Shown: positions 59,177-62,000 of the stretch, one piece after another
How the letters are laid out: each line of letters opens with the position of its first letter
Position numbering within the stretch: position 1 is the stretch's first letter
Source of the DNA: Flavisolibacter nicotianae
GTDB lineage: Bacteria > Bacteroidota > Bacteroidia > Chitinophagales > Chitinophagaceae
DNA: 64,000 bases
Assembly: GCF_003628535.1 (NCBI RefSeq)
Contig: NZ_RBCI01000001.1
Span: 682,001 to 746,000 of the forward strand
Direction of reading: 5' to 3'
Notes under the pieces: generated by a model
What the model saw: the letters and a program-made list of their open reading frames with translations, nothing else
The model's database searches: none
What the model was told of the DNA's origin: nothing
Translations under genes and position numbers: made by a program

Positions 59177-60739
59177 TTAAAACAAACTTCCCCTTCTCCG
59201 GCGGGTGCTTCCGCCCAGGCCCAATACACCAAGCAGGGAGCGGGTCAGCATGGTTGCGGCCGTACGGCCGGCTGAACGTACGATGGGATTGTCCATCCAG
59301 CTTTCTTCCTTGGCAGCCCTGCCTTTTGGTGCAGCTTTTTGCGCCTGCGCTTCTTCGGCTGCTTCCGCAGACTGCTGCTGCGCCACCGCCAGTTTCTGGT
59401 TCAGGATCTCGTATGCACTTTCGCTGTCCACGTCTTTGTTGTATTTCGCCGCAAGCCTGGAAGAAACCACCAGGTTGTTTACTTCGGCATCCGTCAGCAC
59501 GTCCATGCGGCTGGTAGGTGGTTTCATCATCACATGCACCAGCGGTGTAGGAATTCCCTTTTCATTGAGCAGGGTGACGAGGGCCTCACCAATCCCCAAT
59601 TGTGTAATCAGGTCTTCGGTTTTGTAGTAGTCGGTTTCGGGATAGTTCTCGGCGGCCTGCTTGATGGCTTTTCGATCCACGGCCGTAAAGGCCCGAAGGG
59701 CGTGCTGCACCTTCATTCCCAATTGTCCCAACACCGATTGCGGAATGTCCATGGGGTTTTGCGTGGAAAAGAAGATGCCGATCCCTTTGGAGCGAATGAG
59801 CTTGATGACTGTTTCGATCTGTTCGAGCAGCATTTCAGAGGCTTCGTTGAAAATGAGGTGGGCTTCATCGATAAAGATCACCAGCTTGGGTTTATCGAGG
59901 TCGCCTTCTTCCGGTGCGGTGGCATACAATTCGGCCAGCAGTTGCAGCATGAAGGTGGAGAACATCTTGGGGCGATCCTGCAATTCTGTAACCCGCAGGA
60001 TGGAAATCACGCCGCGGCCGTCGTCGGCAATGCGCATCAGGTCATCCACCTCGAAGCTTTTTTCACCAAAGAAATCATCGGCACCCTGCTGCTGCAGCTC
60101 GATCACCTTGCGCAGGATGGTGCCGGTAGAGGTCGTGGAAATTTTCCCGTAGTCTTTTTCAATGTCGGCCTTGCCTTCGTTGGTAATGTATTGCAGCACC
60201 TTGGTAAAATCTTTCAGATCCAAAAGCGGGAGCTGTTTGTCGTCGCAGTATTTGAAGATCATGGCCACGAGGCCGCCCTGCGTATCGTTGAGGCCCAGGA
60301 TTTTGGAAAGCAACACCGGGCCGAATTCGCTCACGGTAGCCCGCAACCGTACACCGGGTTTATTTTTGCTGAGTGTCAGCAACTCCACCGGGTAGGCCCC
60401 GGGTTTGTAGTCGATGCCAATGAGGGTGGACCGTTCCTGTATTTTATCGTTGGGAGTGCCCGCTGCGGCAATGCCACTCAGGTCGCCTTTGATGTCGAGC
60501 AGCAGCACCGGCACACTGGCGCTGCTCAGGCTTTCGCTGATCATTTGCAGCGACTTGGTTTTACCCGTGCCGGTAGCACCGGCAATCAGCCCGTGACGGT
60601 TCATGGTTTTCAGAGGCAGGTAGACATCGGCACCATCCACCACTTCGCCGTTGAACATGGCTCTTCCAATGCGGACGGATTCGCCTTTGAACGTGTAACC
60701 GTCTTTGACACTTTGCAGGAATTGTTCTTTTGTTGCCAT
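59177..60739 (-). CDS. HerA/DUF853-like ATPase
   Basis: A 520-residue protein with P-loop GATGTGKT (54-61), a late KLVIFIDEAHLIF (Walker B) and a sensor region, i.e. the HerA-FtsK-like DUF853 family. The function of this stand-alone branch is unclear; a DNA-pumping or signalling role is possible. No NurA-like nuclease is adjacent, so it is not a typical HerA-NurA pair. Confidence 0.86.
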   Translation of the reverse strand: MATKEQFLQSVKDGYTFKGESVRIGRAMFNGEVVDGADVYLPLKTMNRHGLIAGATGTGKTKSLQMISESLSSASVPVLLLDIKGDLSGIAAAGTPNDKIQERSTLIGIDYKPGAYPVELLTLSKNKPGVRLRATVSEFGPVLLSKILGLNDTQGGLVAMIFKYCDDKQLPLLDLKDFTKVLQYITNEGKADIEKDYGKISTTSTGTILRKVIELQQQGADDFFGEKSFEVDDLMRIADDGRGVISILRVTELQDRPKMFSTFMLQLLAELYATAPEEGDLDKPKLVIFIDEAHLIFNEASEMLLEQIETVIKLIRSKGIGIFFSTQNPMDIPQSVLGQLGMKVQHALRAFTAVDRKAIKQAAENYPETDYYKTEDLITQLGIGEALVTLLNEKGIPTPLVHVMMKPPTSRMDVLTDAEVNNLVVSSRLAAKYNKDVDSESAYEILNQKLAVAQQQSAEAAEEAQAQKAAPKGRAAKEESWMDNPIVRSAGRTAATMLTRSLLGVLGLGGSTRRRRGSLF

Positions 60740-60804
60740 AGAAAAAAGATGTTAAGTATGAATATAAGGTGAGAACGAGGTTGTTTAAAAAATTTGTTTG
60801 GCTT

Positions 60805-61253
60805 TGCAGCGCTGTCACCCTGAGCTTGCCGAAGGGTTGGTGGGTGGCCTTTCCTCCTCAGCAGCTTTTGTGTTTTGCAGGGTATGCTTTTCAGCAGTAC
60901 ACTTTGCCAATTCCTTCAGCAATCATGATCTTGCACAAACAATTCTTCCTTCTTCGCGCTTGACCATCCTTTCAGTTGCTTTTCTCTTTGAATAGCCTGC
61001 ATGATTTCGGCGTACTGCTCAAAATATTTCAAAACGACGGGTCTTCGTTTAAAGGTAAAGCAGGTCAAATTCACCCCCTCATTGTGCTCCTGCAAACGTC
61101 GCTTAAGATCATTAGTTACTCCTGTGTAGTAGAAACCATCGCGACACTGCACAACATAGAGAAAGTCGTTATGAGCTATTTTCATATTCGAGGTTTCAAA
61201 TGATAAACCCACATCGCATTACCCTTCGGCAAGCTCAGGGTGACAGCGCTGCA
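60805..61253. mobile_element. Minimal mobile-like unit: GIY-YIG nuclease gene in a perfect 33-bp inverted repeat
   Basis: The left arm (60805-60837, TGCAGCGCTGTCACCCTG...) and the right arm (61221-61253) are exact reverse complements over 33 bases. Each arm can fold on itself (ACCCT...AGGGT), as REP-like elements do. Only the nuclease gene lies inside the 449-base unit. No target-site duplication is obvious. The unit lies between the convergent kdsB end and the HerA-like start. Confidence 0.75.
60916..61185 (-). CDS. GIY-YIG family nuclease
   Basis: An 89-residue protein from the ATG at 61185. FLYVVQCRDGFYYTGVTNDLKRRLQEHNEG (GIY-YIG pattern: YVV...YTG, with the following arginine in LKRR) and the family end KGWSSAKKEEL are seen. 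Such small single-domain nucleases include UvrC-like and selfish ones. It lies inside the inverted-repeat unit 60805-61253; the longer frame from 61212 is not used. Confidence 0.88.
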   Translation of the reverse strand: MKIAHNDFLYVVQCRDGFYYTGVTNDLKRRLQEHNEGVNLTCFTFKRRPVVLKYFEQYAEIMQAIQREKQLKGWSSAKKEELFVQDHDC

Positions 61254-61283
61254 GAAATTCATTCCTGCATCTGTTTGCAGGCA

Positions 61284-62000
61284 TCACAACAGTTGCTCGG
61301 CCCGCTGCAGGTCTTCCGGCGTATCGATCTCCACCCCCATAAAATCCGTCACCACCATGCGCAGGGGAATACCGTTTTCGAGGTAGCGAAGACACTCCAC
61401 TTTTTCGGCGTCTTCCAGCGGAGAAACTGGCCAGGTCGTGAAATCGATCAGGGCCTGCTTGCGAAAGGCATACACGCCAATGTGTTCATAATAGATGATG
61501 GCGATATTTTTGTTTCGCGGATAAGGAATCACGCTGCGGCTGAAGAAAAGTGCATTCATTTTTTTATCCACGCACACCTTGACATAATTGGGATCGGCAA
61601 TCAGCGCTTCATCGTCCAGTACCTGCATTAAAGATCCGACCTGCACCGAGTCGTCTTCAAATTGCCGCAGGAGTTTTTGCAGCGGCTCTTTTTTCACAAA
61701 CGGTGTATCGCCCTGCACATTCACGATCACATCCGCTTCCAGGTGCTGCGCTGCTTCGGCAATGCGGTCGGTGCCGCTTTCGTGGTTGCCGGTAGTCATC
61801 ACTGCTTTGCCGCCGTGTGCGGTGATTTCCTGGAAAATAATATCGCTGTCCGTTGCGACGATCACTTCAGCAAACAGGCCAGTGGCAACGGTGGCGTCGT
61901 AAGTATGGCGAATGACTGTTTTGCCTTTCAGTTCGGCCATTAACTTTCCGCGAAAACGGGTGGCCGCGTAGCGGGCCGGGATGAGCGCAATGCTTTTCAT
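61284..62000 (-). CDS. kdsB: 3-deoxy-manno-octulosonate cytidylyltransferase
   Basis: A 238-residue enzyme that makes CMP-Kdo for LPS. The nucleotidyltransferase opening IPARYAATRFRGKLMAEL, the TDSDIIFQEITAHGG region and NVQGDTPFV (metal site) mark KdsB. Length is typical. Confidence 0.94.
   Translation of the reverse strand: MKSIALIPARYAATRFRGKLMAELKGKTVIRHTYDATVATGLFAEVIVATDSDIIFQEITAHGGKAVMTTGNHESGTDRIAEAAQHLEADVIVNVQGDTPFVKKEPLQKLLRQFEDDSVQVGSLMQVLDDEALIADPNYVKVCVDKKMNALFFSRSVIPYPRNKNIAIIYYEHIGVYAFRKQALIDFTTWPVSPLEDAEKVECLRYLENGIPLRMVVTDFMGVEIDTPEDLQRAEQLL

Follow-up and report, generated by a model that had tools for sequence, protein, structure and literature searches.

CGTC REPs form a superfamily of short bacterial palindromes with a CGTC head, often changed to TGTC or CCTC, and a stem of 8-9 bp whose first and second positions are complementary A and T (PMC3733652). 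The CGTC REPs described by Di Nocera et al. in 2013 include the dRS3 repeat of Neisseria and the RPE-4 and RPE-6 repeats of Rickettsia (PMC3733652). The passages of the 2013 survey drawn on here report no dedicated enzyme for these repeats, do not mention GIY-YIG proteins and leave the cause of their spread open (PMC3733652). Among the matches listed for the openly licensed PMC literature, by titles and abstract starts, none joins GIY-YIG genes with bacterial REPs.

The window, a stretch of 64,000 nt from Flavisolibacter nicotianae, contains a unit in which two inverted REP-like arms enclose one GIY-YIG gene (60805..61253, no strand assigned, 449 bp outer span). As the original prediction had it, the arms are perfect, with 33 nt each, 100% reverse complementarity and a spacing of 383 nt. 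The left arm (60805..60837, plus strand) is a TGTC-headed hairpin repeat with its head outward, and the right arm (61221..61253, minus strand) is its reverse complement. Exact arms of at least 18 nt occur in 0/129 displaced windows and in 19/5112 swapped flank pairs of related loci, and the arm pair is not a product of chance. The sole plausible gene between the arms, again as predicted, lies at 60916..61212 on the minus strand and encodes a small class I GIY-YIG nuclease (PF01541, E 2.3e-15) of 98 aa from a GTG, with a later in-frame ATG as another possible start; no transposase gene was found between the arms. In the nuclease alignment A1, Y15, Y25, G27, R35 and H39 are invariant and E73 is nearly so. 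These positions, which we take to be the GIY-YIG catalytic residues, are kept in the window domain, as in a freestanding GIY-YIG homing endonuclease. The gene has a GC content of 41%, lower than that of the window (52%) and of its two neighbour genes (53-54%), which hints at import, and the window copy is probably an imported, low-copy member of its group. Besides this one, the genome has two further GIY-YIG matches, inside open frames of 610 and 460 aa, and two PF01797 genes outside the unit.

The arms were proposed to contain REP-like folds, and this holds for the arm type more than for the single arm. A single window arm forms a weak 5-bp hairpin with a fold energy no better than that of shuffles, whereas the stem covaries across arms of the same type: its most variable position is paired in 27/29 sequences (shuffled maximum 21), as C-G, G-C, A-T or T-A. 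Both window arms have the TGTC head of the CGTC superfamily. The stem, ACCCT/AGGGT, has 5 bp, starts with A-C and contains inner mismatches, against the 8-9 bp and A, T start of the superfamily. The superfamily also has many genomic copies, whereas the 15-nt core of the arm has three exact copies in the genome, two of them in the arms themselves and one solo, plus one further copy with 1 mismatch; the first 15 nt of the arm are confined to the two arms. The window arms are a divergent, low-copy variant that is not filed as CGTC REPs, and the window unit would work like CGTC-REP units. The exact solo copy of the core (L005:1481-1540) is a hairpin situated within a terminator-like stem, in its loop, and follows a gene that is presumably chaperonin-like. 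A bidirectional terminator pair, which the original prediction had named as a reason to abandon it, is rejected as the identity of the arms, since 60600-61500 has 0 terminator-like sites (a stem-loop followed by a T run). A known RNA family was also rejected: three weak matches below family cut-offs in eight loci left no credible family at the arms.

Alternative alleles of such units occur in relatives. In Sphingobium, the gap between fnrL and a response regulator gene holds unit DNA in 7/11 records that have both genes. Of these seven, four are identical over the length of the query. TYG73 matches the nuclease in two pieces, so that its frame may be broken. TYG64 and TYG74 (2/11) have one palindromic CGTC REP at the site and no nuclease, and TYG72 and TYG65 (2/11) have neither. 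In sequence, the solo REP of TYG64 is the left-arm head fused to the right arm at an 8-nt stretch common to both, and that of TYG74 has two differences in it. Judged by sequence, such a solo REP would fit insertion into a hairpin and deletion between arms equally. No target duplication was seen in the Sphingobium alignment. In genus g76, an intergenic site holds the nuclease amid several dimers of ~116 bp in three genomes (G063, G074 and G090); two others (G136 and G199) keep both flanks of the site at 85-92% identity and lack the nuclease, with one dimer or two at the site, in a count that excludes genomes matching the left flank only. A search for empty sites with a Rhizobium locus (L314) as query yielded two kinds of record, some covering it in full and others over about two fifths of its length. 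The same site with and without the gene, as known from homing endonucleases, is thus found in relatives, and the window itself was compared by its neighbours only. Arm copies with and without the nuclease, and empty sites, had been suggested as a check: the relatives (Sphingobium, g76) provide them, whereas the genome of the window offers one exact solo core.

The place of the window unit is not fixed, contrary to what the prediction had listed as a second reason to give it up, namely arms found at one place in all relatives. The right-hand neighbour gene is present in 17/18 genomes of the genus, its own included. G006 and G014 keep both neighbours without the unit, having neither nuclease nor arms, and carry another gene pair in the slot, which we take to be toxin-antitoxin-like; the comparison covers these two genomes, the left neighbour lying outside the retrieved stretch in the other loci. 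This small pair, classed by eye, is found at about 2215-2838 of L180 and L182, where the window has the unit. A different occupant in two relatives makes the slot look like a hot spot for insertion.

We read the unit as a minimal selfish element, a REP-dedicated GIY-YIG nuclease that would spread into CGTC/TGTC-headed REP hairpins by cutting and repair, and give this a probability of about one half. The nuclease would recognise its own REP, folded into a hairpin or cruciform, and cut there. A cut solo REP could then be repaired from a REP-nuclease-REP donor with the arms as homology, and the repair would turn the solo REP into REP-nuclease-REP, which amounts to homing into the repeat. Loss between the arms may leave a solo REP behind, a direction of change that we infer from the alleles. 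Short nuclease-free dimers would be non-autonomous copies, and the nuclease would be dedicated to CGTC/TGTC REPs as RAYT is to GTAG REPs. Cut-and-repair homing would explain the allelic series, the match between arm type and nuclease, the near-identical arms and the leftover solo REPs. The solo-REP alleles may be deletion scars and not targets.

Repeats without the nuclease are abundant in some genomes. The GTCA pattern has 147, 77 and 76 matches in G009, G011 and G016, against 0, 2 and 3 for the reversed control. Twenty inverted pairs in G009, picked because they were listed as such, measure 129-137 bp end to end and are partly conserved inside. Of the dimer ends in this genome, 17/34 match 18-25 of the 28 subterminal bases of a nuclease unit from that genome and the remaining 17 only 9-11, next to a mean of 7.1 and a maximum of 25/28 for a random control that may land on true ends. 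Many of the G009 dimers (L199-L218) have a second, perfect hairpin outside the GTCA arm; some of these are terminator-like, and the stem sequence differs between copies.

Dispersed dimers of near-constant length, as in G009, are also what a transposase-like role would produce, and this is the main rival to homing. The nuclease, in the manner of RAYT-like mobilisation, would excise or copy REP pairs, sometimes the whole unit, and insert them at new sites. A nuclease unit occurs twice in G013, on separate contigs; the copies are 80% identical over ~770 bp, and beyond this stretch only shorter repeats match. Some Sphingobium strains lack any REP where others carry the unit. Both observations agree with such a role. 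Neither a target duplication nor a constant target was found, and the presence of a solo REP or a dimer as an alternative allele of one site fits conversion of a REP. GIY-YIG domains are known as nucleases and are not known to act as strand-transfer enzymes. On this balance mobilisation is unlikely, though it is the alternative that fares best.

Across the phylum, genomes with a strong nuclease are richer in the repeat pattern, with exceptions. A second repeat pattern has 6279 matches in 296 genomes of the phylum, versus 657 for the reversed pattern. At least 20 matches are present in 67/140 genomes with a strong nuclease match versus 15/156 others, a correlation that counts genomes as independent and that gives p values of 0.003 and 0.05 in the two large families alone; inside two small families there is no signal. 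Fewer than 10 matches are found in 52/140 strong-nuclease genomes, and at least 20 pattern matches in 12/103 genomes without any A1 match; at most 16 nuclease candidates were scored per genome, so that the per-genome counts are lower bounds. G039 has 467 matches to the GTCA repeat pattern but neither a Y1 transposase nor a small GIY-YIG gene, its GIY-YIG matches lying only in frames of 609 and 460 aa. Its repeats are either an orphan family or one that has lost its enzyme.

The pairing of nuclease and arms recurs well beyond the window. Homologues are present in 23/38 genomes of relatives, a count that includes the genome of the window, and a single genome can have as many as 13 matches. Exact inverted arms of at least 14 nt flank 12/64 small GIY-YIG ORFs (4/68 left out) versus 16/4246 swapped flank pairs, and 8/29 loci of a second sample from a phylum-wide search (2/31 rows left out) versus 0/56 displaced windows and 21/810 swapped pairs. 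Among named loci from a genome scan, arms of at least 13 nt are found at 34/72 (8/80 left out for short flanks) versus 0/129 displaced windows and 240/5112 swapped pairs. The swapped-flank values at 14 nt (21/810) and at 13 nt (240/5112) are raised by common motifs. Taxa with arms of at least 13 nt include Bacteroidota, Nitrospinaceae, Acidobacteria, Chloroflexi and Gemmatimonadetes, as well as Myxococcales, Clostridiales, Parcubacteria, Syntrophales and Omnitrophota. By eye, most of the longer arms consist of GTCA followed by an imperfect hairpin. The window unit is one case of a recurrent, multi-phylum architecture of a nuclease with inverted REP-like arms. One class I nuclease unit (L282:884-2071) lies within a tandem array of 537-bp units, with 2.2 copies and 96% matches.

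The arms fall into five motif types, which lie at most 350 nt from 88/165 nuclease loci; control windows, 291 of them at 700 nt each, gave 14 counts. A tree of 134 nucleases was built from 99 columns and has many open forks; arm type changes along it 21 times, versus 35-44 times in 300 shuffles. Against 200 shuffles, types a, b and c stand out singly, with 8, 18 and 1 changes versus shuffled minima of 11, 22 and 8, and types d and e do not track the tree. The window nuclease belongs to an 11-row group (SH-aLRT 88) in which L099, L108, L111 and L117 have arms of its own type and the others have none or another type. Own-type arms are also found nearby in L102, L103, L106 and L110, where L102 and L106 are Nitrospinaceae.

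The nuclease-linked repeats differ from the repeats of RAYT-type genes. Y1 transposase (PF01797) genes are present in 38/45 genomes, a chosen and mostly repeat-rich set. A GTCA-type motif is found at 1/40 RAYT-type loci, mostly the best-scoring among the matches listed, and other exact inverted arms of at least 13 nt are found at 18/40, showing that the method does see classical palindromes. The identification of the arms as RAYT repeats was accordingly dropped as unsupported, the GTCA-type motif being so rare at RAYT-type loci of the same genomes.

The nuclease and the repeats might keep company passively, both gathering between genes with no function, or the arms might merely insulate the gene. 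Both are indeed intergenic, and the common motifs that raise the swapped-flank control would lend some colour to this. Against it, the RAYT-type genes of the same genomes are hardly ever framed by these motifs, arm type tracks the nuclease tree, the window arms hold no terminator, and both arms are present around the window gene though its genome has almost no other copies. Passive company is therefore improbable. A domesticated nuclease that clears REP cruciforms or junctions for the host, and is therefore kept near REPs, is less probable still: a weak partial PDB profile match to the structure-specific nuclease SLX1 (E 0.0067) speaks for it. Against it, the nuclease is patchily distributed, a genome can have as many as 16 matches (at most 16 scored), many of the listed matches have internal stops, and strains differ in presence and absence.

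The reading as a homing element dedicated to CGTC/TGTC REPs draws further on named plasmid and chromosome-sized records. CGTC- or TGTC-headed stem-loops flank the gene on both sides in 8/22 named records versus 1/58 displaced windows (5/58 for any side), with a CGTC REP rule of at most 2 mismatches, a stem of 9-10 bp and an A-T start; of the plasmid records, 12/41 and 10/38 were chosen for reading, and for Alphaproteobacteria the use of plasmid records makes the sample a biased one. Seven of the 22 are two-sided CGTC records, from Azospirillum lipoferum, Neisseria gonorrhoeae (dRS3), Rhizobium CIAT894, two Shinella, Aeromonas caviae and Neorhizobium, and the eighth two-sided record, from Planktothrix, has TGTC heads in direct order. 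In S. meliloti the repeat is seen by eye on both sides, and the head of the near downstream copy is altered. Nine other named records have inverted arms (scores of 11 to 40) that fall outside the rule, and no arms were found in Subdoligranulum, Variovorax, Cupriavidus and Rhizobium L51/94 (4/22 named records). Photobacterium has a REP at one side of the nuclease only.

In Planktothrix agardhii (L321), the nuclease and its TGTC repeats have a type IIL restriction enzyme gene on one side and drmA, a DISARM gene, on the other. In Sinorhizobium medicae (H89-H93), just 30-31 nuclease residues match, at 87-90% identity, and these matches look like decayed remnants.

The original prediction that a GIY-YIG nuclease may take the role of RAYT gains from the recurrent pairing across phyla, the nuclease-free dimers and alleles, and repeats that are not those of RAYT; the genome of the window is almost without other copies, and the window unit does not belong to a large local family. 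Somewhat more tentatively than for the window unit, the small GIY-YIG nucleases could be the enzymes dedicated to CGTC-type REPs that have been missing so far. RAYT and GTAG REPs would then have a counterpart in about a dozen phyla, a second REP system with selfish homing, repeats as non-autonomous copies and a sister branch that behaves similarly at tRNA genes. CGTC-type REPs are widespread, and a nuclease that is recurrently framed by REPs is a concrete candidate enzyme that can be expressed and assayed.

The sister type of small GIY-YIG gene in the same genomes adjoins tRNA genes or tRNA 3' parts in 42/44 cases (a tRNA or T-loop motif nearby), with 36 of the tRNAs on the same strand and 1 on the opposite strand. 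Exact arms of at least 13 nt are found at 0/44 of these genes, and class I genes have tRNAs at 0/24 and arms at 14/24, the two classes having been split by residue pattern after the flanks were known and thus not blindly. Examples between tRNA genes or tRNA 3' halves are L055:1772-3851, L056:2178-3189, L050:1-1296, L041 and L064. Some of the sister-type genes are in tandem arrays of 351- or 430-bp units, and G030 has about ten of them with several different tRNAs.

Among known systems, MITEs and insertion sequences share with the unit the inverted ends and the combination of autonomous and short copies, and they differ in that no transposase lies between the window arms and no target duplication was found, the Sphingobium alignment included. 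The UPF0213 proteins are the closest solved relatives of the nuclease group by PDB profile search (1zg2, E 1.1e-12; 1ywl, E 1.8e-9) and are deposited as hypothetical proteins. CGTC-tagged REPs have the same CGTC/TGTC head, short stem-loop and inverted dimers and adjoin the nuclease in several Proteobacteria, and the window arms differ from them by a shorter stem and an A-C instead of A-T start. GIY-YIG homing endonucleases such as I-BmoI share the catalytic domain and a site with and without the gene; here there is no intron, and the putative target is a dispersed repeat, not one gene. REPtrons, with RAYT and GTAG REPs or terminal inverted repeats, likewise place a small enzyme gene between inverted palindromes and have enzyme-free dimers elsewhere. 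Their enzyme is a Y1 HUH transposase, whereas the only gene of the window unit encodes a GIY-YIG nuclease, and the palindromes in the same genomes are others. If the homing reading is true, GIY-YIG nucleases solve the same problem as RAYTs in a second, unrelated way.
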